Positions 9,750 to 24,610 of a DNA stretch of 64,000 nt are shown piece after piece; the stretch's first letter is position 1; every line of letters starts with the position of its first letter. The DNA is from Paenibacillus polygoni (GTDB lineage: Bacteria > Bacillota > Bacilli > Paenibacillales > Paenibacillaceae), in NCBI RefSeq assembly GCF_030263935.1, contig NZ_CP127162.1, positions 2,861,501-2,925,500 on the forward strand. The letters are read 5' to 3'. A program made the position numbers and the translations under genes. The notes beneath the pieces are model-generated. The model was not told where the DNA came from and ran no database searches. It was given only the letters and a program-made list of their open reading frames with translations.

Positions 9750-9961
9750 CTTAATATACTCCTTTCTTTTTCTGCACTTAATTAAAAAAATAGAACTCCA
9801 TTTTACTCACTCTCCTATTTCTATACCGTAGTTCAGCAATTCCCAAACATTTGGCGGGAAGAAAGAAATCATTTTATCGTGTAAATAAAGCAGGATAATT
9901 TTGGTAAAATGTTGAATATTGTCCATATAAAAAGATTATTATTCAAATATTGAGGTGCGCG

Positions 9962-11395
9962 ATGAAAAAAACAATGATTTTATTTCTTTTCAGTTTATTA
10001 TTATGCAGTATTTTTCCAAACATCGGGCATGCTTCGAGTAATCCGCCTAAAGCCAAAATTATTCTTGATGGTAAAGAAATCAAACTGCCTTCCCCTGCAC
10101 AAGTGAGCATCATAAATAATTCGGTCATGATTCCCATCCGTGTTGTTGCAGAGAATTTGAACTTTAAAGTAACCTGGGATCAAAAGATAAAACGCGTCAA
10201 AATTCAGAATGATACAGATACCTTAACGCTCACCGTGAATAAAAAAGAAGCCTTGATCAACGACATAGCCTCCCTGCTTGAGGTTTCACCAAGGAATCTG
10301 AATAATACGGTCGTTGTGCCGCTTCGGTTTGTAAGTGAAAATATGGGACTTGCTGTGAAATGGGATAATAAGAATAAAGTCGTTACGCTTACAAGCAGTA
10401 TTCCTGTAGCAGGTTCAAATGGCATTGAAGAAGGGACCTATAAGGAACCTGTCAAACAAGTGAATGATATGTATTTTGCAAACAACCAGCTCGTCGTTTC
10501 TTTAGATGGGGATGTAAAACCTTCTATATCTACACTTGCTAATCCTCAGCGGATTGTGGTCGATATCCCGAACGCGACTTTCTCCAGCTCCTTTTCTCAA
10601 TCTTTAAACATAGGGACGATAGGTAAGCTAGACGTTAGCGGATACTCAACTGTTTCCGAGGTGAGATATTCCTTATTCAGTCGTGATCCGGAAGTTGTTC
10701 GAATTGTTATCGTTGCTGAAGAAGAAATCCCTTTTGAGTTTCAGACGGAAATGGAATCAAATACCCTTGTTGTCGATGTAACGGAAGCGGATGAAAATAG
10801 CACTTTTGTCCCTCTTCCTGCTCCTATTCCTATTCCACCAGTTGACAATTCAGGACGTAAAACGGTTGTAATCGATCCCGGTCATGGCGGCAGCGATCCA
10901 GGTACAATCGGTATTACAAATACACATGAAAAAGATTTTACTTTAGCTTTATCGTTAAAAGTAGAAACATTATTACAAAGTGAGCCGGAGATCAATGTCG
11001 TTATGACTCGTGATGAAGATGTATACCCTACCCGGACGGAACGAGTCGCCTTAGCGAATCAATTAAAAGCAGATCTATTTGTATCGATTCATGGGAATAG
11101 TGTCCTAGCCTCCCCTCAAGCCAGCGGAACCGAATCCTATTATTATCAGCGAAGCAGCAGTAAAGATTTAGCAAAGGTTATTCATAAGCATCTCGTGAAG
11201 GCACTTGGGTTTAAAGACCGCGGTGTTAAAGAAGGGAATTACCAAGTCATTAGAGAAACAACGATGCCCGCCGCACTGCTGGAGATTGGATTCCTTAGTA
11301 ACCTAGCAGAAGAAGAGGCGCTCTTCACAGAAGCTGTACAAGATAAAGCAGCACAAGCCATTGTAGATGGAATTAAAGAGTATTTGGGTATTTAA
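9962..11395 (+). CDS. N-acetylmuramoyl-L-alanine amidase (Cu-amine-oxidase-like N domain, AMIN, Amidase_3)
   Basis: A secreted zinc amidase that cuts the amide bond between muramic acid and the stem peptide. I start at the ATG at 9962 because GAGGTG lies just upstream; a TTG at 9950 would only add four residues before the signal peptide (MKKTMILFLFSLLLCSIFP, cleavage near GHASS). Then come a copper-amine-oxidase-like domain (about 35-145, with two MIPIRVVAE/VVPLRFVSE-type motifs), an AMIN domain (about 165-270), a proline linker and the Amidase_3 domain. Zinc and catalytic residues are visible in DPGHGG, THEKDF, SIHGNS and ALLEIGFLSN. This domain order is common in Paenibacillus. Confidence 0.94.
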   Translation: MKKTMILFLFSLLLCSIFPNIGHASSNPPKAKIILDGKEIKLPSPAQVSIINNSVMIPIRVVAENLNFKVTWDQKIKRVKIQNDTDTLTLTVNKKEALINDIASLLEVSPRNLNNTVVVPLRFVSENMGLAVKWDNKNKVVTLTSSIPVAGSNGIEEGTYKEPVKQVNDMYFANNQLVVSLDGDVKPSISTLANPQRIVVDIPNATFSSSFSQSLNIGTIGKLDVSGYSTVSEVRYSLFSRDPEVVRIVIVAEEEIPFEFQTEMESNTLVVDVTEADENSTFVPLPAPIPIPPVDNSGRKTVVIDPGHGGSDPGTIGITNTHEKDFTLALSLKVETLLQSEPEINVVMTRDEDVYPTRTERVALANQLKADLFVSIHGNSVLASPQASGTESYYYQRSSSKDLAKVIHKHLVKALGFKDRGVKEGNYQVIRETTMPAALLEIGFLSNLAEEEALFTEAVQDKAAQAIVDGIKEYLGI

Positions 11396-11990: not shown

Positions 11991-12028
11991 AAAAAAGAAA
12001 CCTATTCCTCACGGACGGTTTCTTTTTT
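11991..12028. terminator. bidirectional terminator between convergent genes
   Basis: A perfect 12-bp stem AAAAAAGAAACC / GGTTTCTTTTTT. It can stop the small + strand gene and also the ten-gene minus operon; its right arm overlaps the last codons of the CHY gene. Confidence 0.9.
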
Positions 12029-12332
12029 CAAAATAAATGTGATAATGTGCAGCACACCCTTCATTAAACAGAGCGTGGCAATGCGGACAGCTGTCCGTAT
12101 TCATATACTCTTTAATTGACAATTCGCTGTGACAATTCCCGCATAGGATCGCGAGTTCACTGAACTGCTCCTGCGGCCAGCGCCGAATGGCGTGATCAGC
12201 ATGTTCCTCATGACATTTATAACAAGGATAATATCGGTTGCAGCATGCAAATTTCACTGCGATGATATCTTTTTCCGAATGATAATGAATACAGCGCGTT
12301 TCACGATCCAAGACAGCTCCATAAACGTCCAC
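12009..12332 (-). CDS. CHY zinc-finger protein
   Basis: A 107-residue protein built from the CHY zinc-finger pattern: TRCIHYHSEKD, KFACCNRYYPCYKCHEEHADH, AILCGNCHSEL and CPHCHALFNEGC. These Cys and His sets should bind two or three zinc ions. Bacterial members have no settled function. The start is GTG at 12332, seven bases after GGGGGG. It directly follows ecfT (start and preceding stop nearly touch), so it is the last gene of the BirA-box operon. Whether it serves biotin transport is unknown. Confidence 0.88.
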   Translation of the reverse strand: MDVYGAVLDRETRCIHYHSEKDIIAVKFACCNRYYPCYKCHEEHADHAIRRWPQEQFSELAILCGNCHSELSIKEYMNTDSCPHCHALFNEGCAAHYHIYFEKRNRP

Positions 12333-12333
12333 T

Positions 12334-13137
12334 TCAGATCCCCCCCATCCTTAATAGTAACACGACAAACGTAAATAAAAGTGCGATAACCAAGGCTATA
12401 TAATCGATCCGCTTCATTTCAAGTTGTCTATAGACGGTTCTTCCCTTGCCATTCCCATACGCCCTAGCATCAATCGCATACGTTAGTTGTTCCGCACGTT
12501 TTACCGTTGTGAATAGCAAGGGAATGAGAATGGGAATGTACGAAAAAATACGTTTTGTCCAAGGTAGAGACGAAATGTCATATCCTCTTGCTTTTTGGGC
12601 AAGAAGAATCCGTTCAAGTTCTTGCATGATCGTGGGAATAAAACGGATTGCGATGACAATCATGAGCGAAAATTGTTCGATGGGCACGTTTAGTCTGGAT
12701 AACGGTCCGAGAAGCCTTTCAAGCCCTTGAGCTAATGTTAAAGGTTTGGTAGTTAACGTCAAGATCGAGGCAAGTAAAATCAGCAATACAATTCGCATCA
12801 CAAACCGCATACCATTTTGCAAACCCTCTACGGTTACATGTATAAAGGAATAAGACCAAAGAACCCTGCCTTCCGTTGTCAGCGTATGAAAGAAAAAAGT
12901 GAACGCTAATATAAGTAAAACAGGTTTTAAACTTCTCAGCACGATACGAAACGGGATATTGGATAATCGGTAAACCCCTATAACAAAAAGGGTAGCTGCT
13001 GTATAACTAACGAACGTTTTCAGCATCAAAAAGCTAAGCATAATAATGAATACGCTAAGTATCTTCGTTCGAGGATCCAGCTGATGAAGCATTGATTCTC
13101 GTTCCCTATATTCGCCTAGTAATAAGCTATTCGCCAT
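12334..13137 (-). CDS. ecfT: ECF transporter T component (EcfT)
   Basis: The membrane-embedded coupling subunit that links an S component to the two ATPases. The product, 267 residues from the ATG at 13137, has several hydrophobic segments and the coupling-helix motifs ERILLAQKARGYD and RAEQLTYAIDARAYG; the Ala-Arg-Gly and Ala-Arg-Ala triplets contact the ATPases. I prefer 13137, which overlaps the ecfA2 stop and has AAGGGG upstream, over the upstream in-frame start at 13185. It ends just before the CHY gene. Confidence 0.93.
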   Translation of the reverse strand: MANSLLLGEYRERESMLHQLDPRTKILSVFIIMLSFLMLKTFVSYTAATLFVIGVYRLSNIPFRIVLRSLKPVLLILAFTFFFHTLTTEGRVLWSYSFIHVTVEGLQNGMRFVMRIVLLILLASILTLTTKPLTLAQGLERLLGPLSRLNVPIEQFSLMIVIAIRFIPTIMQELERILLAQKARGYDISSLPWTKRIFSYIPILIPLLFTTVKRAEQLTYAIDARAYGNGKGRTVYRQLEMKRIDYIALVIALLFTFVVLLLRMGGI

Positions 13138-14011
13138 TTGTAAGACCCCTTGCATGCCAAATGGGCAATATTCTATCAAAAACATCTCGTTCCTTACAGC
13201 TTTTCACTTCGATTGGCTGCCCGTACCATTGTTCGATGAACTGCAGGAACTCTATATGTTCTGGTAAAGATAACCCTGCTTGTCTTAGTAATTCTGTTTT
13301 TTTCAAAAATAAAGTATCTGCATCTTCATGACCGATGAGCAGTCCCGCCTTAAATATCATGACCTCATCCGAATATTCGGCAACATCATCCATATGATGG
13401 GATACAAAAATAATCGTGCAGTTATTTTGGTGCTGCCATTCCTTCAGCATCTTGAGTAGAGCTACTCGGCTCAAAGGATCAAGTCCTGCGGTTGGTTCAT
13501 CTAAAATAAGCAGTTTTGGGTTCATAAGCAATACAGAAGCAATAGCAAGCCGCCGTTTCTGACCTCCACTTAATTGAAAAGGTGCATAGTTCAATACGTC
13601 TTTATAGAGTTCGACTTGTGGAAGTACATTTTCTATAGCCTCGTCAATCTGCTGCGACGAATATCCCTGAATCTTTGGTGCAAAAGCAAGTTCTTTGTAC
13701 ACCGTTGTTTCAAAAATTTGATGTTCCGGATACTGAAAAACAAAGCCGATTTCAGGTATGACTTTCATTCTTCCTTTGGAATCGGTTGGAACCCCCTCTT
13801 TATCAATAAAGTACTGTCCCTGAACCTTCGGAATGAGCCCCTTTAATACTTTGACAAAGGTAGATTTGCCCGCACCTGTTGGTCCGATGACAGAAATCCA
13901 TTTTCCTTCATGCAAAGTGCAGGTGATCTGTCTTAGAGCCATCCGTCCGTCATAGTCCACAGCTACATCTATTAGTTCGCATTCCATTCCGAACGGATCA
14001 TCTCCTTCCAA
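13127..14011 (-). CDS. ecfA2: ECF transporter ATPase (EcfA2 type)
   Basis: An ABC ATPase of 294 residues. Walker A is GPTGAGKST, the signature is LSGGQKRRLAIA, Walker B is LLILDEPTAGLDP and the switch is VSHH. The start is uncertain: Met at 14011 (MEGDDPFG) overlaps the end of ecfA1, and Met at 13987 (MECELIDV) better fits the usual N-terminus; neither has a good ribosome binding site. With EcfA1 and EcfT it makes a complete ECF energising module. The overlap with both neighbours indicates one transcript. Confidence 0.92.
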   Translation of the reverse strand: MEGDDPFGMECELIDVAVDYDGRMALRQITCTLHEGKWISVIGPTGAGKSTFVKVLKGLIPKVQGQYFIDKEGVPTDSKGRMKVIPEIGFVFQYPEHQIFETTVYKELAFAPKIQGYSSQQIDEAIENVLPQVELYKDVLNYAPFQLSGGQKRRLAIASVLLMNPKLLILDEPTAGLDPLSRVALLKMLKEWQHQNNCTIIFVSHHMDDVAEYSDEVMIFKAGLLIGHEDADTLFLKKTELLRQAGLSLPEHIEFLQFIEQWYGQPIEVKSCKERDVFDRILPIWHARGLTNGE

Positions 14012-14772
14012 TCTGCTGTAAGTGGTGTATTTAAATGAAGATTTTGATGTAAGCGGACAGAAAAGGGCTTTTCCAACTGATAATCGGTCACATTAACAGT
14101 TTCAAAAAAAGTCGCAGGTTCCCCATCAAATTCAATTCGGCCTTCATGTAGAAGCAGCAGCCGCTTGGCAAATAGTACCTCATCCATGTGATGGGTGATA
14201 TGAATAATCGTCATGCCCTGACGGTGCAGCTCCTTCATGATCTTCATCACTTGCTCTCTTCCCTCAGGATCAAGCATGGATGTTGCTTCGTCAAAAATGA
14301 TAATTTGTGGACGCATCGCTAATATAGCTGCAATGGCAACACGCTGTTTTTGTCCTCCAGACAGGTGGTGCGGCATCGCCTCTTTATAGTCCTCCATATG
14401 GACCATATGTAAAGCTTCCTCCACACGCTGATCCATCTCTTCTCTAGGCACCCGAATATTCTGAAGTCCAAACAGGATTTCATCCAGCACCGTTGTGGTG
14501 ATAAACTGATCCTCTGGGTTTTGAAAGACAATCCCGATTTTCTCATGAATACTTACAAGATCCTCCGGATTTGAAGTCTCCAGATTGCCGAAGGTCACAT
14601 GTCCCTGCTTCGGCAAGAGCAGTCCATCCATGAGCTTAGCTACCGTAGATTTTCCACAGCCATTGGCTCCAACCATCGCGACGAATTCACCGGGCTCAAT
14701 TGTAAAGCTCAAATCATCCAAGATCGGATGTTCTTGTTGATAATAAAAATGTACATGATCAAAGATAAGCAT
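13972..14772 (-). CDS. ecfA1: ECF transporter ATPase (EcfA1 type)
   Basis: An ABC ATPase of 266 residues starting MLIFDHVHFYY. Walker A is GANGCGKST, the signature is LSGGQKQRVAIA, Walker B is IIIFDEATSMLDP and the switch His is in HITHH. The ATG at 14772 directly abuts the stop of the SDR gene, so translation is coupled. In most Firmicutes the shared ecfA1-ecfA2-ecfT set lies beside ribosomal-protein genes; here it sits in a bioY operon, which suggests a copy dedicated to BioY (inference). Confidence 0.93.
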   Translation of the reverse strand: MLIFDHVHFYYQQEHPILDDLSFTIEPGEFVAMVGANGCGKSTVAKLMDGLLLPKQGHVTFGNLETSNPEDLVSIHEKIGIVFQNPEDQFITTTVLDEILFGLQNIRVPREEMDQRVEEALHMVHMEDYKEAMPHHLSGGQKQRVAIAAILAMRPQIIIFDEATSMLDPEGREQVMKIMKELHRQGMTIIHITHHMDEVLFAKRLLLLHEGRIEFDGEPATFFETVNVTDYQLEKPFSVRLHQNLHLNTPLTADWKEMIRSEWNAN

Positions 14773-15594
14773 CTATTTCGTTCCCTTCTGCCGATACCAA
14801 GCTGCGAAAAATCTGTCTATTCCTTCTTCAGAAAAGACAGGCGCAGGTTTTTGCCATCGAGTCACCGTTGAACCATTTACTCCAAATATCTCACCAGTTA
14901 TATCCTGATCAGGCTGTGCCAGCAATGCGGCTACGAATTTCGCGACATCATCCGGTTCACCGATTTTCCAGAAATCAGGAAATGAATCTTTGCGCCTAGC
15001 GCACTTTTCTTTTATATGCTCAATTACAGGTCTAGTCATATCCGTTAATGCGGCAGGTGAAATACCATTTACACGAATTTGATAGCGCGCAAGCTCTGCA
15101 GCTAAAGTCCACACCATGCCGAGCATTCCGGCTTTTGCTGCACTATAATTCAACTGTCCTACAGAACCAGATAACCCGGCAGTCGATGTCATGAACAGAA
15201 TATCGCCTCCATATGGAGTCATATAAGGCAATACTCGCTGAGTGCAATAGAAAGCACCATGTAAATGAACATCGATAACCGAGTTCCACTCATAATCCGT
15301 CATGCGTATACACTTTTGGTCATGTAAGTTACCAGCAGAGTGAATCAATACATCTATCCTGCCATACTTTTCTGCAACATGGTCTACCATCGCAGTAACT
15401 GCTAATGGGTCAGCGACGTTAGCACAGTATCCAGTAGCCACGCCTCCTGAGCTTCGAACTTCTCTTACCACTTCATCTATGAGACTTTGCTTGGTACCAT
15501 TGATAACGACCTGATAACCGCTTAATCCAAGCTGAAGAGCAACACTTCTTCCAATGCCCCTGCTAGATCCGGTAATTAAAGCTGTTTTACCCAT
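14773..15594 (-). CDS. SDR-family oxidoreductase (3-oxoacyl reductase-like)
   Basis: A 273-residue short-chain dehydrogenase with the NAD(P) motif TGSSRGIGRSVA (about 8-19), HSAGN (NAG-like), catalytic Ser in MTSTAGLSG and YSAAK for Tyr and Lys. It resembles FabG and acyl-CoA-linked beta-ketoacyl reductases. Its ATG overlaps the stop of the MaoC gene (TAATG) and its stop abuts ecfA1. In this operon the likely reaction is interconversion of 3-oxoacyl and 3-hydroxyacyl thioesters; the direction and chain are not known. Confidence 0.88.
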   Translation of the reverse strand: MGKTALITGSSRGIGRSVALQLGLSGYQVVINGTKQSLIDEVVREVRSSGGVATGYCANVADPLAVTAMVDHVAEKYGRIDVLIHSAGNLHDQKCIRMTDYEWNSVIDVHLHGAFYCTQRVLPYMTPYGGDILFMTSTAGLSGSVGQLNYSAAKAGMLGMVWTLAAELARYQIRVNGISPAALTDMTRPVIEHIKEKCARRKDSFPDFWKIGEPDDVAKFVAALLAQPDQDITGEIFGVNGSTVTRWQKPAPVFSEEGIDRFFAAWYRQKGTK

Positions 15595-15935
15595 TAGAAC
15601 CTCTCTTCCACTGAAAAAGTGCCCTTCGCAATGACTTCGCCAGTTTCTGCTGTAACAGTTATGTCAATTTGATCTACGCAGTCTTCAAAATGAAAACTTG
15701 CTACCGCATCTGTTAATAGTGGATTGATAAATTTCATGTTGCAGGTTTTGATCCACTGAGCTGGATGTTCCGCTAAATACAAGGACTGTGCAATACCCAT
15801 GATGTACATTCCGTGTACAATAGGTCGTTTATACCCAGCCCTGGCTGCAGCTTCCTCATTCAAATGAATGGCAGCTCTATCTTTAGAGGCAGCAGCATAC
15901 TGCTGAACAAGAGCAGTTGTGATTTGCTTTTTCAT
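15594..15935 (-). CDS. MaoC-like (R)-hydratase/dehydratase, catalytic half
   Basis: A 113-residue single-hotdog protein. The (R)-specific enoyl-CoA hydratase motif is intact: a catalytic Asp and His five apart in ASKDRAAIHLNEEAA, followed by RPIVHGMYIMG. Such enzymes hydrate 2-enoyl-CoA to (R)-3-hydroxyacyl-CoA or the reverse. Start and stop overlap the neighbours as ATGA and TAATG. The gene before it encodes the partner-type hotdog, so the two probably form a heterodimer, as HadA/HadB-type dehydratases do (inference). Confidence 0.86.
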   Translation of the reverse strand: MKKQITTALVQQYAAASKDRAAIHLNEEAAARAGYKRPIVHGMYIMGIAQSLYLAEHPAQWIKTCNMKFINPLLTDAVASFHFEDCVDQIDITVTAETGEVIAKGTFSVEERF

Positions 15936-16312
15936 AATCCATCACCTACGGAGATTAATACCGTTTCTGCTGTAACGATAAGTTTGTTCTTACTGGTACA
16001 CACGAGGCTATGAGTATACAAGGTCAAACTCCCATGCCGTCCTGCTTTTTTTTCTACTTTTTGTAACGATAATTCACAATCCAGAGTCATACCCGCCGTA
16101 AGTGGAGCCTCGTAGCTAAATTGCTGTGATCCATGAATTAGAGGTTCGTTCATAGGAAGCCACGGAATATCAAATTCACTCCAAAAAATAATCGGCATTG
16201 TGGCTGGGGCAATCAACTCACCGCTTGGTGTTGGCATGGGGAATTCGATGCTCTTCGCATACTGAGTTATCGACTTCGCAGATACATAAATCCGCTTCTG
16301 AAGCTTATTCAT
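15932..16312 (-). CDS. FAS1-like/MaoC N-terminal hotdog dehydratase, non-catalytic half
   Basis: A 126-residue protein with the features of the MaoC dehydratase N-terminal family: substrate-binding start FPMPTPSGELIAPATMPIIFW and HGSQQFSYEAPLTAGMTLDCELSLQKVEKKAGRHGSL in pieces along the hotdog. It lacks the D-x4-H pair, so it should act with the catalytic half encoded next. It overlaps thiolase by ATGA and its partner by ATGA. Alternative: an acyl-binding protein acting alone. Confidence 0.82.
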   Translation of the reverse strand: MNKLQKRIYVSAKSITQYAKSIEFPMPTPSGELIAPATMPIIFWSEFDIPWLPMNEPLIHGSQQFSYEAPLTAGMTLDCELSLQKVEKKAGRHGSLTLYTHSLVCTSKNKLIVTAETVLISVGDGL

Positions 16313-17460
16313 TTCACCGCCTCCACTAAGGTCGCAAGACCAATTCCTCCGCCAATACCAAGTGTAGCAAGCCCGCGTTTGTAAGGTTTTCGCAGCATTT
16401 CAGCACATAATCGCGTCATTAAAATAGCGCCGGATGCACCGTAAGGATGACCGATCGCCAGCGAACCACCACCACGATTGACCTTATCCTCTGGAATCTG
16501 AAGCTCTTTTAATGAGGCCAATACTTGTGAAGCAAAAGCTTCATTGAATTCAACGAGATCTATATCCTCCACTGTCAGCTGCTGACGGCTTAACAATTTT
16601 TGGACAGCAGGAACGGGCCCGATCCCTAAGTAATGTGGATCTACCCCTGCCGCCTGCGCATCCACAAAACGTAAGATAGGCTGTAATTTGAGCTCAGTAC
16701 ATTTATCACGGGACATGATAAGAACCAGTGCAGCACCATCATTGATTGGACATGCGTTACCAGCAGTAACCGTACCTTGATCCCGAAAGATAGGCGGTAA
16801 TTTCTGCAATTTCGCAAAACTCGTATTGGCTCTTGGACATTCGTCCGTATCCACCCATTCTCCATTCGACTGAATAGGAACAATCTCCTCATCAAATCTT
16901 CCCAATTGCTGTGAATGTATTGCTTTTTGATGGCTCTTCAAAGCATACTCATCTTGTTCTTCTCTGGATATCTCATACTTTTCAGCTACATTCTCCGCAG
17001 CAACGCCCATATCTGGGTCGCCGTATGCACTTGGAGTGAAAGAGGCCCGCGTATATAGCTGTGGTACGCCCATTAAGGTTTGCGGCTTGGTCATTTTCCA
17101 TGGAGCACGGCTTGTACTTTCGACCCCGCCTGCTAAATATACTTCACCCGCACCACTCTGAACTAGCCTCGCTGCAATATTAATCGCCTCTAAACCGGAA
17201 CCGCACTGCCGATCAATGGTGACACCAGGTACCGTGACAGGAAGCCCCGCTTCGAGTGCAGCTACTCGTGCAATATTACCCCCTGGTCCTACCACATTGC
17301 CAATAATAATGTCATCAATGAGGTCCCTCTGCAAGTTTGTCGCAGATACGATATGCTCAATAAGCGGTGCTAATAAGGACTCCGGTTCCAGCTCACTAAA
17401 AATCCCGCCCATTTTACCGATCGGTGTACGTTTTGCCATGACAACGACAGCCTCTCTCAT
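16309..17460 (-). CDS. thiolase-family acyltransferase lacking the second catalytic cysteine
   Basis: A 383-residue thiolase. The nucleophilic Cys86 is present in DRQCGSGLEA, the GHP motif is in SLAIGHPYGASGA, and NEAFA is intact. The third signature reads GLATLGIGGGIG: Gly368 (codon GGT) replaces the cysteine (usually C-x-G-G-G-x-G) that acts as acid/base in normal thiolases. The enzyme may be slow, inactive in C-C chemistry, or specialised. It overlaps the ligase and the hotdog gene by ATGA. A homologous arrangement, thiolase-like next to acyl-CoA ligase and bioY, exists in the BirA-controlled yhfUTS cluster of B. subtilis. Confidence 0.9.
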   Translation of the reverse strand: MREAVVVMAKRTPIGKMGGIFSELEPESLLAPLIEHIVSATNLQRDLIDDIIIGNVVGPGGNIARVAALEAGLPVTVPGVTIDRQCGSGLEAINIAARLVQSGAGEVYLAGGVESTSRAPWKMTKPQTLMGVPQLYTRASFTPSAYGDPDMGVAAENVAEKYEISREEQDEYALKSHQKAIHSQQLGRFDEEIVPIQSNGEWVDTDECPRANTSFAKLQKLPPIFRDQGTVTAGNACPINDGAALVLIMSRDKCTELKLQPILRFVDAQAAGVDPHYLGIGPVPAVQKLLSRQQLTVEDIDLVEFNEAFASQVLASLKELQIPEDKVNRGGGSLAIGHPYGASGAILMTRLCAEMLRKPYKRGLATLGIGGGIGLATLVEAVK

Positions 17461-18947
17461 ATCATCACTTCTTTCATGTATTCTTTCATCGCATGGCGAG
17501 CGACCTTTCCGCTGCTAGTATAGATGAATTGATCCACTGTAATGAGTTGTTTCGGGGCTTTGTAACTGGCTAAGTACCTGCGGCAATGATTTTTTATTTC
17601 TTCTATGGATAGGTTTTCTTCTCCACTCCATTGTACAAGTGCTGTCACTTGTTCTCCCCAATAGTCATCCGGCAGCCCAAGTACCATTACTTCTTTGATC
17701 GCCGGAATAAGCTTCATAACGGACTCGACTTCCTCAGCAAAAACATTCAGGCCTCCCGATACGATCATATTTTTAGCACGACCGGCCAAATGCAAATATC
17801 CATCCTCATCCTTCGATACATAGTCTCCAAGCATAAGCCATCCTTCACGGAAGATATTTGCCGTTTCGTTAGGTAATCCGTAATACCCTGAAAACATCAT
17901 GTCACTTCGAATATATAGCTGTCCGATCTGTCCCTCAGGCACCTCTTTAAAATGTTCATCGCGAATCGAGATTTCTACGCCTTGAAATGATTTCCCAACC
18001 GAATTCGGTTTATTTTCTGCATATACATCAATATAACTGATATAGCTCGCTTCAGAAGAACCATAAAATTCGTAAAGCTTTGCTCCGCCAAAGATCTCCT
18101 TGGCCCTTTGCTTGGATGCTTCGGACCATTTTCCTCCCGAACTGATCAGGGCTTGCATATGTGCCCTGCCTGGAGTAGCTTCCTTCATCATCGATTCAAT
18201 CATCGTAGGAACAACAAATAAAATCATGTCAGGATTACGTTCGCATAGTTCCAGTACCTTCTTAGGATCAAAATGGTCTACGATATGAAATGTCGCCCCA
18301 CTTACGAGACTCTGTAATAAAGCAAATAACGACAAAGAGTGAACGAAGGGACCTGGTGCCATAATATGTTCCATGTTGTGAAACTCGAAGGCTTCATTTG
18401 TTGCTTCAAAGCTTTTCATCCAAGACAAATGACTACGCATATACCCCTTGGGCACTCCTGTTGTACCTGATGTGAAACCGATAAATAATAATTCGTTCGT
18501 TTCATCCACTTCGGCTGTTGGCTCGAAAGATTCGATCCAATCGTAATACGAGCCCTCATCTTCGGAAGCAATGGTAAGCAGCTGAATCTCGTTATCGCAC
18601 CTAATCAGTTTATTCGCGTATGTTTTCTCCGTAAAAATTATACGAGGATCACATCGCTGTAAAATGGCATTAACCTCTGCCTGACTCCATTTTGGATCTA
18701 GAGGTATAGGCACGCAGCCTGCAAAGATGGCTGCAAGAAAAACTTCCACAAACTGGGTGCGATTCGTAGATAAAATGGCAATCTTATCATGATGGAGACC
18801 CTTCTGTTTGAAACCATGGGCGATTTTTTTGATCCTGGTTACTAATTCAGAGTAAGAAAGACTAGATCCATTATGAGATAAAGCAATTTTATCTGGCTGA
18901 ACCGCTGCATGTCGCAATATCGGCTTTACTATATTCAATTTCATCAC
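17457..18947 (-). CDS. acyl-CoA synthetase / carboxylic acid CoA ligase (AMP-forming)
   Basis: A 496-residue ANL-superfamily enzyme that activates a carboxylic acid with ATP and CoA. Visible motifs are FIGFTSGTTGVPKGYMRSH (P-loop), YEFYGSSEASYIS, GWLMLGDYVSKDEDGYLHLAGR and the C-terminal catalytic lysine in SSGKVARHAMK. It is the second gene of the BirA-box operon, 14 bases after bioY. The length fits medium- to long-chain or dicarboxylic acid ligases. B. subtilis YhfT occupies the same position next to bioY. A pimelate-like or fatty acid substrate is an inference from the regulation. Confidence 0.9.
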   Translation of the reverse strand: MMKLNIVKPILRHAAVQPDKIALSHNGSSLSYSELVTRIKKIAHGFKQKGLHHDKIAILSTNRTQFVEVFLAAIFAGCVPIPLDPKWSQAEVNAILQRCDPRIIFTEKTYANKLIRCDNEIQLLTIASEDEGSYYDWIESFEPTAEVDETNELLFIGFTSGTTGVPKGYMRSHLSWMKSFEATNEAFEFHNMEHIMAPGPFVHSLSLFALLQSLVSGATFHIVDHFDPKKVLELCERNPDMILFVVPTMIESMMKEATPGRAHMQALISSGGKWSEASKQRAKEIFGGAKLYEFYGSSEASYISYIDVYAENKPNSVGKSFQGVEISIRDEHFKEVPEGQIGQLYIRSDMMFSGYYGLPNETANIFREGWLMLGDYVSKDEDGYLHLAGRAKNMIVSGGLNVFAEEVESVMKLIPAIKEVMVLGLPDDYWGEQVTALVQWSGEENLSIEEIKNHCRRYLASYKAPKQLITVDQFIYTSSGKVARHAMKEYMKEVMI

Positions 18948-18960
18948 ACCTATTTATGAC

Positions 18961-19530
18961 TTAAATTTCCGTATTTAAGGATCGATGGACTTTATCTTCA
19001 ATGGGACTGATGGTTTTTAATTGAACTGCAACGATCGCTGCAATGAGTGCTTTGATACAATCTCCTGGTATGAATGCCAGAGCTCCTATAAGGCCAGCCC
19101 AAATTGATGTATTCGTTACGAGCGCCATAACGGGTGCACCAATTAAACTAACAAGCAAGACACCAAAAACAAAATTAATCATAAATAATTTCCATGTTTT
19201 TAGCTTACCCCATACCTTTTCCGTCATAAACCCTATACAGAATGCGGCAATGGGCCAGCTTAGTATGTATCCTGCCCCCGGTCCAATTATAGCAGATAGA
19301 CCTCCCCGGCCGCCGGATAATAATGGTAAACCTAATGAAACTAATACGATAAATAAAATTAAACTAAGTCCAGCCGTTTTCTTTCCTAAAAAACATCCTG
19401 CCAGCATGACACCAAGAGTTTGAGCAGTGATTGGAACAGGAATAAATCCTAAAGGAATGGGTGGAATCAATCCTAATACTCCTATGAACGCTGCAAATAA
19501 TGCGGCAAATACCATTTCTTTTGTCTTCAA
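18961..19530 (-). CDS. bioY: BioY: biotin-specific S component of an ECF transporter
   Basis: A membrane protein of 189 residues with six hydrophobic segments, which captures biotin for uptake. The family blocks LGLIPPIPLGFIPVPITAQTLGVM and IGPGAGYILSWPIAAF are present. The start is TTG at 19530: GGAGGT lies exactly six bases upstream, whereas an upstream ATG at 19551 would put the ribosome binding site inside the gene. It is the first gene of the operon behind the BirA operator and promoter, so biotin should repress it. Confidence 0.94.
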   Translation of the reverse strand: MKTKEMVFAALFAAFIGVLGLIPPIPLGFIPVPITAQTLGVMLAGCFLGKKTAGLSLILFIVLVSLGLPLLSGGRGGLSAIIGPGAGYILSWPIAAFCIGFMTEKVWGKLKTWKLFMINFVFGVLLVSLIGAPVMALVTNTSIWAGLIGALAFIPGDCIKALIAAIVAVQLKTISPIEDKVHRSLNTEI

Positions 19531-19593
19531 GTGAATACCTCCAAGTATCATTGTAAAACGATTATTCTATTAGCGTCGACATCTAATGATAGA

Positions 19594-19622
19594 ATTATAT
19601 CCTCAGATTTTATTATTGTAAA
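19594..19622 (-). promoter_or_regulatory. sigma-A promoter of the bioY operon
   Basis: On the minus strand TTTACA (19617-19622), a 17-base spacer and a perfect TATAAT (19594-19599). The -35 lies inside one arm of the BirA box, so bound BirA would block RNA polymerase. Confidence 0.85.
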
Positions 19623-19649
19623 CTTAAAATTATAATTATAGGTTTACAA
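19616..19649. promoter_or_regulatory. bioO: BirA operator (biotin repressor box)
   Basis: Perfect inverted arms TTGTAAAC (19616-19623) and GTTTACAA (19642-19649) separated by an 18-base AT-rich spacer. This is the known bacterial BirA operator pattern (as in the E. coli bio operator and Bacillus sites). It overlaps the bioY promoter. Confidence 0.9.
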
Positions 19650-20324: not shown

Positions 20325-21119
20325 TTAGCTGGTGTATACTTCCTCCAGTTCTTCGCGGGAAGGCGGTTCACCTTTTAATTGTTTAAGTACTTTCTTCAGC
20401 ATCACAGATGCTTTGACTTTTATATCAAGTGCTGCGGAGATTTCAATCTCATATCTACGATTCTTAATTGCTTGCTTCAGATCTTCCACCGTATGAATGG
20501 GTTCATTGAAACGATTCACAACGCTTCCATATTGCAGACACTGATGAGTATCGCTACCTGCGACAATGGGAAGACCAAGCTCCTCAGCAAACGGTTCTAA
20601 TTTCTGACGATTCACTTCTACTCCTTGTTTATATAAATCTTTTGCATTGAGATCCAGTGCATCTAATTGAATGAGCAGTTCTCTATTTAATTGATGCAGC
20701 GGAGTTGAATCCCGGAAGGGATGTCCTCCAATTTTTAATAGATGGTACGTATCAGCAAGCTTTAACAGCTGCGCAAATGGGATGAAGTTTTCTTTCGAGG
20801 TATATGGTTCAAGCTCCGTTCGAATGGCCAAGATCTTTTCCTTTTTCCCTATCAGCAGAATATGTCCTGTTTCTCTTATATCGACTTCGATTCCTGGGAA
20901 TACCCGAACCCCATGGGCTTCATAGTAGTGACCATTATAAGGGAAGGCGGAATCAAGTCCTTCATATATCGCTTCATAGTTTTTTGTATTAAAATGTTCG
21001 GTTAATGCTACCGCATCTAACCCGTTCAATTTTGCTTCTTGCATCATTTCGTGAAAATAATCCAGTGAGAAATCGGATTGTTTGGATAGTTTTCCGTGGG
21101 TGTGTAAATCGATTAACAT
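20325..21119 (-). CDS. PHP-domain phosphoesterase
   Basis: A 264-residue metal-dependent phosphoesterase of the PHP superfamily (histidinol-phosphatase/DNA polymerase-associated fold). Metal ligands are visible in DLHTHGK, ALTEHFN, FPGIEVDI, IGGHPF and AGSDTHQ. The substrate is not predictable; it lacks the features of HisK. It is the last gene of the second ECF operon, 35 bases after ecfT, so it may process the imported compound or a phosphorylated derivative (inference). GGAG precedes the ATG. Confidence 0.88.
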   Translation of the reverse strand: MLIDLHTHGKLSKQSDFSLDYFHEMMQEAKLNGLDAVALTEHFNTKNYEAIYEGLDSAFPYNGHYYEAHGVRVFPGIEVDIRETGHILLIGKKEKILAIRTELEPYTSKENFIPFAQLLKLADTYHLLKIGGHPFRDSTPLHQLNRELLIQLDALDLNAKDLYKQGVEVNRQKLEPFAEELGLPIVAGSDTHQCLQYGSVVNRFNEPIHTVEDLKQAIKNRRYEIEISAALDIKVKASVMLKKVLKQLKGEPPSREELEEVYTS

Positions 21120-21154: not shown

Positions 21155-21988
21155 TTAATACAAAATGGATGGGAATTTCAGACCGAACCAGAACAACCAG
21201 ATGATATAAAGAATAGAAAATGCAATAAAATACAAATCTAGCATGCCGAGTTTAAGATAGGATAATCTCATCTTTTTCACCTCACGGTTATTAAGTCCAT
21301 AGGTGAACCCTCGTGTTTCAAGTGCTTCAACCGTGGTTCTGGAACGTTTGGCCGTATTTAACATCAGCGGATAGAAACAAAGCACCGTCAGTCGCAGATA
21401 ATAAATGATGACCCGAATGTAGAGAAAACCAGGCCGATCGGGAGACCTTCCTCTTAGACGGAAAGACAACAGAATTTGATGAAACTCTTCTAATAGAGTA
21501 GGTAGAATGCGGTACCCGTATGACAAACTAAATGAGAATGTATCCGGTACACCGAGAGCGGACAGGCCATCACTTAATTTTTCCGGGTCCATACTTGAAA
21601 ATACAGCGATACTGGCCAGTGAAATCACCGATAACTTCAGCGTTAACGTAAGGAGAGGTAAGAGGGAAGTTAAATCGCCTCCAAACAGCATCGAGAATAA
21701 GAACATCCACCCTACTTGACCGGCCAGTCCTAAACATAATATGAATATAAGGATGGAACTAACCCGAGATAACACCGTCATACCTACCATAAGTACGAAC
21801 ATGCCGATTAGAATCGTCCGGTTATGAATAAACCAGGGAACGATGGCAAAAAACAAATACCAAGATAAAAGCGTACGCGGATCAAGCCGCCCGATAAATG
21901 TGGTGGAATTACCATAAGCCGTACCGAGTAATTCCAGCTTGATTCGTTCTACAGAGATGCGGTCAAGTGTCTTTTTGACGATTTCCAC
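21155..21988 (-). CDS. ECF transporter T component (second system)
   Basis: A 277-residue membrane protein with an EcfT fold and the coupling motifs LSFRLRGRSPDRPG and RTTVEALETRGFTYG near the C-terminus; the second carries the Arg-Gly of the ATPase contact site. The start is GTG at 21988, behind AAGGAGAGG and overlapping the fused ATPase gene by about 40 bases. Sequence differs clearly from the bioY-operon EcfT, so this is a separate, probably dedicated transporter. Confidence 0.87.
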   Translation of the reverse strand: MEIVKKTLDRISVERIKLELLGTAYGNSTTFIGRLDPRTLLSWYLFFAIVPWFIHNRTILIGMFVLMVGMTVLSRVSSILIFILCLGLAGQVGWMFLFSMLFGGDLTSLLPLLTLTLKLSVISLASIAVFSSMDPEKLSDGLSALGVPDTFSFSLSYGYRILPTLLEEFHQILLSFRLRGRSPDRPGFLYIRVIIYYLRLTVLCFYPLMLNTAKRSRTTVEALETRGFTYGLNNREVKKMRLSYLKLGMLDLYFIAFSILYIIWLFWFGLKFPSILY

Positions 21989-23739
21989 GCGGTATCCTCT
22001 CCTTTCCGTTGAGATTGTTCTCTAGGTGTGTAAAACGAAATGAATTCATCCAGCGAGTAACAAATTTTCGGCAATCCGAGACACCGGCTAAGTTCCATGA
22101 GCTGCGTAGGAAGCAGACCCGCTCGTACAAGAAGTCTCTCATCTTCAAAGATCTGTTCCTTCGTACCGTCCGCAATGACAATCCCCTCATGCATCACAAT
22201 GATCCGGCTTGCCCACTCCGCCACAAGCTGCATATCGTGAGTTGCGATAGCGACCGTCTCAACATGTGATTTCAAAGTAGAGAGTACACTGAGCATCTCC
22301 TGCTTTGTTGCAATATCCAAATTTGCTGTTGGTTCATCTAGGAGCATAATGGATGGCTGTATAGCGGCTCCAATCGCTAAAGCTACACGCCGCTGCTGCC
22401 CCCCGCTGAGCAGTCTTGCGTCACGGTCCTTAAGTCCAGTAAGGCGGAAGCTTTCGAGTACGCTCTGAATACGTTCTTCCGCATCCGGCAAACGGTGGGC
22501 ATGAACATAATAACCGACTTCTTTTTCAACAGAGTCCTCAATAAACATCTCTTCGGGGTTCTGATATACATAGGATACATGTCCTGCCATTCGCTCGGGG
22601 CTCATCCCTTTTAGCGAAAATCCATTCACATTCAAGTATCCGCCCGTAGGTTTTACGATTCCTGCGATCAGTTTAAGTAAGGATGATTTCCCTGCACCGT
22701 TATTGCCGATAATCGCCACGGCTTCACCAGAGTGCAAAGTTACATTCACTCCATCCAGTACAGGGTGCATCTTCTTATGAATGGTGCGATATGATAAACG
22801 AACATCTTCTGCCACAACTACTTTTTTTTGAATACTGGGCTCTGTGACCACTGGTGGTTTTTCTATGTTTCCATGAGTCAAGGTTACTTGGCGCGATTGA
22901 AACCACTTTTCTCCTTCTGTGATATGAACCGGAAGTAAAGTCCCGCCTTGTGGTAATGATCCGCGATTCTTCAAATCTAGCCATGCTGCTTGAGTCACTT
23001 GCGGCGGATAGATCCCAAGCCCAAGTAACGTTTCTACCGAGGATAGAGCTTCCCGAGTTGGACGCTTCCAAGCGACCTTTCCTTGATCCATGAGAACAAC
23101 TTCCTTACAATAGTCAGCGATAAATTCGGCATGATGTTCGATGACAACAATGGTTTTTCCGTAATCTTCGTTTAAGCGTTTTAAAATATCATAGATATGC
23201 CTCGCATGCTGCGGATCAAGCTGTGATATCGGCTCATCAATCACTAAAATGTCCGGATCCATAGCAAGCGCTCCCGCAAGTGCGAGCAGATGTTTTTGTC
23301 CGCCGCTGAGTGACCAAATGAATTCATCTTTTACATTAGACAGCCCCATCATCATCAGTGCTTTTTGACCACGAGCTTGATAGTCAGCATAACCGTAGTT
23401 GAGCGGGGTAAAAACGACATCATCAAGTACGGTCGGACGAACCAGTTGATTCTCGAAATCTTGGTATACATATCCTACCTTTCTCGATAGTTCCGCAACA
23501 CTGCTGGTCTCAGACGATTGCCCGCATATGACGGACTCTCCTACGTAATCTCCCGTATAATAATGAGGAATCAGACCATTAAATAGTTTACAAAGCGTGG
23601 ACTTCCCTGAACCGTTACTTCCAATAATCGCTGTGAAATCTCCAGGGTACATTGTTAACGATACATCACTCAATACAGGCTGCTCAGACCCGGGATATGT
23701 AAAAGAAACATGTGATAATTCAATTAAAGGCTCACGCAT
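21949..23739 (-). CDS. ECF transporter ATPase, two ABC domains fused
   Basis: A double ATPase of about 596 residues starting MREPLIELSHVSFTYPG. Domain 1 has GSNGSGKST, LSGGQKHLLALAG and ILVIDEPISQLDP; domain 2 has GNNGAGKSS, LSGGQQRRVALAIG and IMLLDEPTANLD. The ATG at 23739 overlaps the S-component stop by eight bases; an in-frame start at 23826 would lie inside the S gene and is less likely. One polypeptide here replaces the EcfA1/EcfA2 pair, typical of dedicated ECF systems. Confidence 0.92.
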   Translation of the reverse strand: MREPLIELSHVSFTYPGSEQPVLSDVSLTMYPGDFTAIIGSNGSGKSTLCKLFNGLIPHYYTGDYVGESVICGQSSETSSVAELSRKVGYVYQDFENQLVRPTVLDDVVFTPLNYGYADYQARGQKALMMMGLSNVKDEFIWSLSGGQKHLLALAGALAMDPDILVIDEPISQLDPQHARHIYDILKRLNEDYGKTIVVIEHHAEFIADYCKEVVLMDQGKVAWKRPTREALSSVETLLGLGIYPPQVTQAAWLDLKNRGSLPQGGTLLPVHITEGEKWFQSRQVTLTHGNIEKPPVVTEPSIQKKVVVAEDVRLSYRTIHKKMHPVLDGVNVTLHSGEAVAIIGNNGAGKSSLLKLIAGIVKPTGGYLNVNGFSLKGMSPERMAGHVSYVYQNPEEMFIEDSVEKEVGYYVHAHRLPDAEERIQSVLESFRLTGLKDRDARLLSGGQQRRVALAIGAAIQPSIMLLDEPTANLDIATKQEMLSVLSTLKSHVETVAIATHDMQLVAEWASRIIVMHEGIVIADGTKEQIFEDERLLVRAGLLPTQLMELSRCLGLPKICYSLDEFISFYTPREQSQRKGEDTAWKSSKRHLTASL

Positions 23740-24610
23740 TTTTCGTATCCGTCCTGTTTGCAGATTTTGAAGCCTTACTGCGAAGGATAGAAATCGTGAC
23801 GATAGCGATGACAGCAGCTGCTGCAATACTGACCCAGATCAGTGTATTTTCCGAAGATTCGGCAAAAGGAAGCTCCCATTCCCCAAAACTCCATTCCGTC
23901 TCGGACATAACTTCAGCACCCACGGCAAGGAGCGCAAGTACTACGCCCATAATGATAAATTTAGGAGAAAGCCAATTAGACATCTCATACTTTGTATCTT
24001 TGTGGCGCGGTCTCATTCCAAGAAGCGGTTCGATTTTGCCATATAGACGTGGAACTAGATACAGTGTCGGCAGCAGTGCAAACAAAATACCAGAGAATAA
24101 AACATCGTTAAGAAATCCAACACCTTCAATGATTACAATACTTTCAGCTAGCCCTTGAACCGCTTCAAGTTCCTCTACCCCAACCCATACTTTAACCACA
24201 TCGACGATAGAACTCAGCAATTGATGAATAGCGACTCCTGTCATTGCAGCGATCCCAATCTGCCGTTTATTCGTCGGATCAGACACCATTCGGCCAGCTG
24301 TATACATCGCAAGGGAGAAAGTAATGAATTTTTCTACTTCGCCAATTCCTCCGAATTGACCCAGCATCAGCTCACCGAAGATGATTTCTCCAACAGACGC
24401 ACCTACCGCCGCATAAAGAGGATGAAACAGCATACAAAGGGTGAGTGGAATAAATGCAAAATACTCAACAGACAATTCAATCGGTCCCAGCTGGATGCTG
24501 GGTATGAGCTCGGTGAACATGTTAGACAAGCCATACAAGGACATCGACAGTACAAAAATCATCATTTTTTGAGATTGTGTCAGTGTATAGCGTGTAGACA
24601 ACGTACTCAT
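23732..24610 (-). CDS. ECF transporter S component, substrate unknown
   Basis: A 292-residue membrane protein with six or more helices. The N-terminal part (SLYGLSNMFTELIPSIQLGPIELSVEYFAFIPLTL, then PLYAAVGASVGEIIFGE) fits the ECF-S fold, but the C-terminus is longer than usual, with an extra loop (WSFGEWELPFAES) and a final helix followed by a basic tail. I do not recognise the substrate group. AAGGGAGG precedes the ATG. It is the first gene of S-AA-T-PHP and divergent from an RpiR regulator. Confidence 0.83.
   Translation of the reverse strand: MSTLSTRYTLTQSQKMMIFVLSMSLYGLSNMFTELIPSIQLGPIELSVEYFAFIPLTLCMLFHPLYAAVGASVGEIIFGELMLGQFGGIGEVEKFITFSLAMYTAGRMVSDPTNKRQIGIAAMTGVAIHQLLSSIVDVVKVWVGVEELEAVQGLAESIVIIEGVGFLNDVLFSGILFALLPTLYLVPRLYGKIEPLLGMRPRHKDTKYEMSNWLSPKFIIMGVVLALLAVGAEVMSETEWSFGEWELPFAESSENTLIWVSIAAAAVIAIVTISILRSKASKSANRTDTKNA

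Follow-up and report, generated by a model that had tools for sequence, protein, structure and literature searches.

A BirA-box operon of Paenibacillus polygoni that joins biotin-type uptake to acyl-CoA enzymes: a tentative case for salvage of shortened biotin

Why should five acyl-coenzyme A (CoA) enzymes be encoded between a biotin-type importer and the module that energizes it? The question is raised by a ten-gene operon of Paenibacillus polygoni that lies behind an exact box for BirA in a window of 64,000 nucleotides (nt), the whole stretch analyzed here (contig NZ_CP127162.1, positions 2,861,501 to 2,925,500; coordinates below are those of the window). The operon probably serves auxotrophs starved of biotin. 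What its enzymes make there can be answered more tentatively: we propose a salvage operon for biotin starvation, in which imported biotin with a shortened side chain (bisnorbiotin, tetranorbiotin) may be lengthened back to biotin. Bisnorbiotin and tetranorbiotin are products of bacterial biotin beta-oxidation. A general form of the proposal, vitamin repair in which auxotrophs of at least two phyla import nor-biotins that the beta-oxidation of other organisms has left behind and rebuild them by reverse beta-oxidation with a relocated-cysteine thiolase, is somewhat unlikely.

A ten-gene operon behind a BirA box

From 19551 down to 12009 the minus strand encodes BioY, an AMP-forming acyl-CoA ligase, a thiolase, a HadA-like and a HadB-like hotdog protein (HdA and HdB), a short-chain dehydrogenase/reductase (SDR), two EcfA ATPases, EcfT, and a CHY zinc-finger protein (Table 1), which are the genes and the order listed in the initial annotation of this sequence. 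BioY, EcfA, and EcfT together form an energy-coupling factor (ECF) transport module within one operon, and the genes of the five enzymes stand between that of the S component and those of the units that energize it. The initial annotation also described ATGA or TAATG overlaps at nearly every junction. This is a little strong: four of the nine junctions fit (ligase/thiolase, thiolase/HdA, HdA/HdB, and HdB/SDR), three others are gaps of 13, 0, and 1 nt, and the last two are longer overlaps whose extent varies with the start codon chosen. The single transcript that the annotation concluded is nevertheless likely; the largest intergenic gap is 13 nt. The ligase starts at GTG 18947 or ATG 18944, the second EcfA likely starts at ATG 13987 with AAGGAG upstream, and ATG 13137 is a possible alternative start of EcfT. 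A hairpin at the end of the operon is a probable two-way terminator.

Table 1. Features of the operon and its control region in window coordinates
Feature	Coordinates	Strand	Evidence
BirA box TTGTAAAC-N18-GTTTACAA	19616..19649		exact palindromic half-sites
Promoter-like site TTTACA-N17-TATAAT	19594..19622	-	11/12 consensus positions
bioY, S component of ECF biotin-type transporter	18961..19551	-	PF02632 9.1e-35; PDB 4dve 1.6e-35
AMP-forming acyl-CoA ligase, YhfT-like	17457..18947	-	PF00501/PF13193; PRK07638 448 bits, below cut-off 518
Thiolase, YhfS-like	16309..17460	-	Cys86/Asn306/His338; Gly368 at second catalytic Cys place; Cys237
HadA-like hotdog (FAS1_DH_region), HdA	15932..16312	-	PF13452 5.9e-9; HadA 28.6 bits, far below cut-off 180
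HadB/MaoC-like hotdog, HdB	15594..15935	-	PF01575 6.1e-13; D19-x4-H24 dyad
FabG-like SDR	14773..15594	-	TIGR01830 196 bits, below cut-off 298; S137, Y150, K154
EcfA ATPase 1	13972..14772	-	TIGR04520 322 bits, above cut-off 315
EcfA ATPase 2	13127..14011	-	TIGR04521 269 bits, below cut-off 330
EcfT	12334..13185	-	PF02361 3.5e-37
CHY zinc-finger protein	12009..12332	-	PF05495 9e-13
Hairpin, A/T tails on both sides	11995..12024		read from sequence; absent from sites of computed scan, weak

The BirA box is the sole 0-mismatch site in the 4.94-Mb genome, and the -35 element of the promoter-like site lies inside it, in keeping with the box over a good promoter that had initially been annotated. This site is the best of its kind in the region; promoter-like sites of the region as a whole are at chance level (13 against 17.6 in shuffles). 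Sites with up to two mismatches to the box number 13 genome-wide against 15 in a reversed-pattern control, and because they are no commoner than in the control, these weak BirA-like sites are attributed to chance. The genome has one BirA match, which aligns to residues 17 to 335 of the query BirA, including the winged helix-turn-helix region of the query (residues 17 to 69).

Boxes are also conserved at related loci. With spacers of 14 to 18 nt allowed, 28 of 77 related loci have an upstream box with at most one mismatch, as do none of 2310 mononucleotide shuffles, and 39 of 77 have one with at most two, as do 0.4% of shuffles; the count starts at the most upstream ECF gene, so the exact box of locus L014 was lost from it. 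Five relatives have a gene of the birA cluster in divergent orientation beside the operon, one of the five confirmed by scan. None of the nine loci from alphaproteobacteria or Marinimicrobia has such a box, the sites there having 6 to 8 mismatches. From the box, its conservation, and the BirA match we infer that BirA regulates the operon in vivo, as first annotated, and under BirA control expression would be expected in biotin shortage.

The operon shares its BirA-controlled ligase and thiolase with yhfUTS of Bacillus subtilis and yhfS-yhfT of Staphylococcus aureus, and with the B. subtilis cluster also a BioY-type S component. BirA has been reported to bind such targets in vitro (PMC4016012, PMC6391492), among them the operator of yhfU (PMC4016012), and biotin to repress the S. 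aureus yhfS-yhfT promoter in an Escherichia coli reporter strain (PMC6391492, PMC7235819). The kinship with yhfUTS proposed in the initial annotation is supported by sequence and by the conserved boxes: the locus has the box at its promoter, the bioY-ligase-thiolase order on one strand, and a BirA with a DNA-binding domain in the same genome. Unlike these known systems, it adds two dehydratase-type hotdog proteins, an SDR, EcfAAT, and CHY, to which relatives add a FabK-like reductase, and most carriers in its family are without bioB. Open-licence literature searches returned no function for the BirA-linked ligase-thiolase pair.

Loss of biotin synthesis genes in carriers of the long operon

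The genome of the window is 99.94% complete and has neither bioB (best score 41.4 bits against a cut-off of 225) nor bioA (238 bits against 405). Its one BioY match is that of the operon, and as the sole match in a genome without bioB or bioA this BioY is the likely biotin importer.

Across 295 genomes of the family, 28 full carriers were defined by an SDR orthologue (58% identity or more; the next matches reach at most 46%), and every one of them also has the ligase. In two carriers a single in-frame stop interrupts the SDR gene, and for these two the check covered that gene. bioB was present in 1 of the 28 full carriers against 143 of the 267 other family genomes (Fisher p = 8e-8, on rows that are not independent). 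Among bioY-positive family genomes, bioB is present in 1 of 28 full carriers and in 91 of 203 others; permutation within genera expects 7.7 (p = 2e-4). Family genomes with a ligase orthologue and no SDR show bioB in 1 of 11 cases. bioA was absent from all 28 full carriers, from the 6 genomes searched of these 11 with the ligase only, and from the 4 alphaproteobacteria searched, against 9 of 12 bioB-positive comparators that possess it; this test is weaker than that of bioB, since 3 of the 12 comparators also lack bioA. As a separate observation, four genomes (G064, G086, G110, and G274, the last of these P. gallinarum-like) have bioB and no bioA over the cut-off, as if they could use dethiobiotin only.

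Among the named loci, bioB was found in 4 of 26 genomes of L014 and L016 to L040 (L015 lies outside the count). None of the 9 ligase-thiolase genomes from alphaproteobacteria or Marinimicrobia has it (bioY shows in seven, and six are metagenome-assembled genomes [MAGs] whose completeness is unknown), nor does any of the 3 cyanobacterial rows, which show no bioY. The association with bioB loss is a property of the long operon of the Paenibacillus family and of the alphaproteobacterial form, not of every ligase-thiolase pair.

Distribution and gene order in relatives

A scan of GTDB contigs with the thiolase confirmed 536 loci, of which the best 80 were kept, and at 78 of these 80 a ligase gene lies no more than 2.6 kb from that of the thiolase. 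Our script places a same-strand bioY upstream at 61 of the 78 ligase-thiolase loci; by listing there is one also at L075, L079, L083, and L090, where over-long ligase open reading frames (ORFs) hid it from the script. The same-strand genes downstream at the 78 loci include an SDR (51), a hotdog protein (47), EcfA-like (29), EcfT-like (29), and CHY (13) proteins, and a FabK-like family, u0 (21). Genera with the long layout are Paenibacillus, Fontibacillus, Psychrobacillus, and, in diverged form, Kurthia; other Bacillota have shorter forms. CHY is a late operon gene at its 13 loci, Kurthia included; the zinc finger has no evident role in the proposed pathway. A protein database search with the thiolase returned 1329 rows, and the 120 listed carry the name Paenibacillus or Psychrobacillus, or no name.

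Loci in Azospirillum, Rhodospirillaceae, and a Marinimicrobia MAG combine EcfA, EcfT (or an unscored gene of 200 amino acids [aa] in its place), BioY, ligase, and thiolase, and the ligase-thiolase pair accompanies bioY or bioMNY in three phyla, one of them represented by a single MAG. Like alphaproteobacterial bioMNY, the window's operon has dedicated A and T units for its BioY, and two Azospirillum plasmid copies of bioMNY continue into ligase and thiolase. Unlike the window's operon, these copies are followed by no hotdog or SDR gene, and the alphaproteobacterial loci have no BirA box.

Plasmid p42f of Rhizobium etli CFN42 (L098, 5032-9167) carries a thioesterase-ligase-thiolase trio with a thiolase of the same clade and no bioY adjoining. 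The thioesterase, which precedes the ligase and thiolase, is of the YbgC/FadM type (68.1 bits against a cut-off of 68.7) and would release a free acid. R. etli CFN42 is a reported biotin auxotroph (PMC8914248). A divergent gene resembling quinone or acrylyl-CoA reductases of the medium-chain dehydrogenase/reductase (MDR) type stands beside the trio.

A thiolase family with a possibly displaced second cysteine

Thirty-three thiolases at 58% identity or more to that of the window, from two phyla, were aligned. The alignments included, besides the window's own proteins, 32 of 68 thiolases, 42 of 65 ligases, 25 of 48 SDRs, 15 of 34 HdB together with 4 of 12 rows of family u2, and 9 of 22 u0 rows. 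All 33 thiolases have the nucleophile Cys86, Asn306 (in NEAF), and His338 (in GHP). Where the second catalytic cysteine would stand, all have Gly368, and Cys237 is invariant; five further plasmid copies from Azospirillum and Rhizobium also have this Gly and Cys. The catalytic cysteines of the biosynthetic thiolase ThlA are Cys88 and Cys378 (PMC4595758). The window thiolase thus shares the nucleophilic Cys, Asn, and His with thiolases of the PhaA/ThlA type and differs from them in being without the second catalytic Cys.

An IQ-TREE phylogeny of 48 rows (midpoint rooted, with one long outgroup row) split 38 operon-type thiolases from 10 generic plasmid-borne ones (support 100/100, branch length 0.65). 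The clade has Gly at the second-cysteine place and the new Cys in 38 of 38 rows, while all 10 outgroup rows have Cys there and Ser at the other place. This pattern suggests a specialized thiolase family whose second cysteine may have moved to Cys237. 3-Oxoadipyl-CoA thiolase models are among the best NCBIfam matches of the window thiolase, and AlphaFold2 (AF2) modeling gave mean predicted local distance difference test (pLDDT) values of 91.4 for the thiolase and 90.0 for the ligase.

Direction of the pathway and the enoyl reductase

The catalytic Ser-Tyr-Lys residues of the SDR are invariant in 26 of 26 aligned sequences, and no acidic residue stands at the end of its beta-2 strand, the position on which the rule for NADPH preference in SDRs is based; the protein is predicted to be an NADPH-dependent 3-ketoacyl reductase. 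The D-x4-H dyad of HdB is invariant in 20 of 20 aligned sequences. HdB is probably the catalytic subunit of a dehydratase and HdA probably its noncatalytic subunit.

The operon in the window contains no enoyl reductase gene, and the initial annotation was correct that the set has neither this enzyme nor an acyl-CoA dehydrogenase. Its description of a nearly complete cycle is supported by sequence. In relatives the missing step can be located: u0 is the last operon gene, on the same strand, at 21 of the 78 loci (L057, on the opposite strand, is outside the 21). It follows CHY at 8 loci, EcfT at 9, and SDR at 4, at a distance of -4 to +40 nt in 17 of the 21; in the other 4 the ORF, taken from its first start, overlaps the preceding gene for longer. 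The proteins are 318 to 348 aa long (274 in L053, cut by the end of the contig) and belong to the nitronate monooxygenase/FabK family. In the two copies scanned, the best NCBIfam match is FabK (TIGR03151; 282 and 278 bits, below the cut-off of 453); the nearest solved structure is FabK 7l00, with putative nitronate monooxygenases scoring almost equally. Eight other u0 proteins are 65 to 84% identical to that of L019. The presence of u0 would give these relatives a full cycle of ligase, thiolase, reductase, dehydratase, and enoyl reductase, whereas the organism of the window has lost, or never had, the gene. Its best u0 homologue (43% identical) is encoded outside the window, roughly 15 kb ahead of it, and with 425 bits comes close to the cut-off of the FabK model. 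The neighbors of this homologue read like a CoA-transferase and a transporter, an assignment made by reading, without a scan.

No unassigned gene of the long operons could be an acyl-CoA dehydrogenase. Chain lengthening is favored because of the FabG-like SDR, the D-x4-H dyad, the FabK-like end gene, this lack of a dehydrogenase candidate, and BirA control, and we consider it rather likely that the module runs reductively. The logic of ligase, thiolase, ketoreductase, dehydratase, and enoyl reductase is that of reverse beta-oxidation and of elongation independent of malonyl-CoA; the operon differs from such systems in its biotin control, its biotin-type import, and its putatively displaced second thiolase cysteine.

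Salvage of shortened biotin and competing explanations

In the route that we propose, a low level of biotinyl-AMP would release BirA from the box and allow transcription. BioY and the dedicated EcfAAT module would import biotin and, hypothetically, biotin catabolites with shortened side chains, which the ligase would convert to CoA thioesters. The thiolase would then add an acetyl unit from acetyl-CoA, the SDR would reduce the 3-ketone, and HdA and HdB would dehydrate the product. An enoyl reductase, encoded by the final operon gene in the 21 relatives and by a FabK-like stand-in elsewhere in this genome, would yield the saturated chain, and biotin would be released for BirA by a thioesterase. 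Pimelate is of no benefit to an auxotroph. It could benefit either by regaining biotin from the shortened forms or by making up for products that its carboxylases fail to supply. Shortened biotin is favored because the enzymes are embedded between BioY and the energizing module and because of the linkage to bioY or bioMNY in three phyla. The use of desthiobiotin by marine bacteria (PMC9561691) likewise lets a relative of biotin serve as an escape from auxotrophy; here bioB is absent and lengthening of the side chain is proposed. If the route is real, genes of the yhfTS type would have a function, and if microbes can reuse nor-biotins, their supply of biotin would exceed free biotin alone. Together, the long operon, the loss of bioB among carriers in its family, and the odd thiolase allow the imprecise "fatty acid" annotation to be replaced by a claim, open to test, on how auxotrophs live on a damaged vitamin.

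Several findings weigh against this proposal. Its weakest step is the substrate, which we infer, and it is doubtful that nor-biotins are what the enzymes act on; fold comparison of the ligase and thiolase models matches generic families only and gives no pocket information. With the second thiolase cysteine lost, the condensation chemistry is unproven. No thioesterase was recognized in the operon of the window, the genome has no enoyl reductase of the operon type, and open-licence literature searches gave nothing on bacterial reuse of bisnorbiotin or repair of nor-biotins. The test for biotin synthesis covered bioB and bioA, with bioD, bioF, and bioW outside the search. bioB is moreover present in 35 of the 79 related named genomes searched. 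Of the Bacillota rows from genera other than Paenibacillus, Cohnella, Fontibacillus, and Psychrobacillus, 29 of 36 have it, both Kurthia with the long operon and its FabK-like gene included; two of the three Psychrobacillus keep it too, as do P. contaminans and P. gallinarum, again with the long operon. In a second subtype, whose ligase is 38 to 40% identical, 6 of 7 family genomes and 2 of the 3 genomes of its named loci (L064, L065, and L067) possess bioB. A 2024 study renamed B. subtilis YhfU as PanU and reported that it is needed for high-affinity pantothenate uptake (PMC11487621), a result that makes it less safe to assume biotin import by each BirA-linked BioY.

This last result suggests an explanation in which the BioY paralogue imports a compound other than biotin, such as pantothenate, with the enzymes working in, or in support of, the corresponding pathway. 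We regard it as quite improbable, given that the single BioY match in a genome without bioB and bioA is likely the biotin importer and that a BirA box stands at the promoter; motif comparison did not set the operon BioYs apart, and with the contact residues of the Lactococcus lactis protein unsettled we make no claim from it. A carboxylase bypass, in which biotin shortage disables acetyl-CoA carboxylase and exhausts malonyl-CoA and BirA induces a malonyl-CoA-independent elongation of fatty acyl-CoAs with acetyl-CoA, shares its enzymes, direction, and BirA logic with the salvage route. It would also serve bioB-positive carriers, which salvage explains less well, and it accords with five Cohnella and Paenibacillus loci (L016, L029, L031, L037, and L081) that have the box (0 to 1 mismatch) and ligase-thiolase-hotdog-SDR without bioY. 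Such a bypass is nevertheless unlikely: the synteny with bioY or bioMNY in three phyla, including loci without a box, points to an imported compound as the substrate, and the conservation of the thiolase across two phyla is unusual for an enzyme of broad chain length.

The same enzymes might instead be used oxidatively, the ligase and thiolase being the classical first and last steps of a beta-oxidation that would shorten some imported acid with a dehydrogenase encoded elsewhere. The distant subtype at L065 has an acyl-CoA dehydrogenase downstream, whereas the long operons contain no candidate for it; this absence, the expected expression at scarce biotin, the FabG-like SDR, and the FabK-like end gene make oxidative use improbable. 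The initial annotation had suggested that a pimelate-like acid is scavenged or built for biotin synthesis; condensation of glutaryl-CoA and acetyl-CoA toward pimeloyl-CoA would be one such route. The elongation chemistry (C5 plus C2) and the 3-oxoadipyl-CoA thiolase matches fit this suggestion, and among the other Bacillota, most of whose carriers keep bioB as counted above, pimelate supply is less clearly excluded. Among the full carriers of the family, 27 of 28 are without bioB and 28 of 28 without bioA, the genome of the window included, and we therefore find the suggestion unsupported here, reject it for this genome (barring an unrelated biotin synthase), and consider pimelate supply most improbable overall. 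Defense against inhibitors of biotin synthesis was rejected by reasoning alone, as this genome shows neither bioA nor bioB.

Neighboring genes and a distant subtype

A second ECF set lies just upstream of the operon (21155-24610). It comprises a CbiQ-type EcfT (21155-21988), a protein of 625 aa (21949-23826) that on reading, without a scan, resembles a double EcfA, and a membrane protein of 292 aa (23732-24610); a PHP-domain protein (20325-21119) adjoins it. L014 and L015 share these neighbors. At its other end the operon adjoins an N-acetylmuramoyl-L-alanine amidase with AMIN and Cu-amine-oxidase-N domains (9950-11395).

The subtype of L064, L065, and L067 has the order bioY-EcfA-EcfA-EcfT, an adenine-deaminase-like amidohydrolase, ligase-thiolase-SDR, a macrolide-type glycosyltransferase, and an acyl-CoA dehydrogenase, and may be a biosynthetic cluster of its own. 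L065 and L067 also encode a HadA/HadB-like protein of 334 to 355 aa on the other strand.

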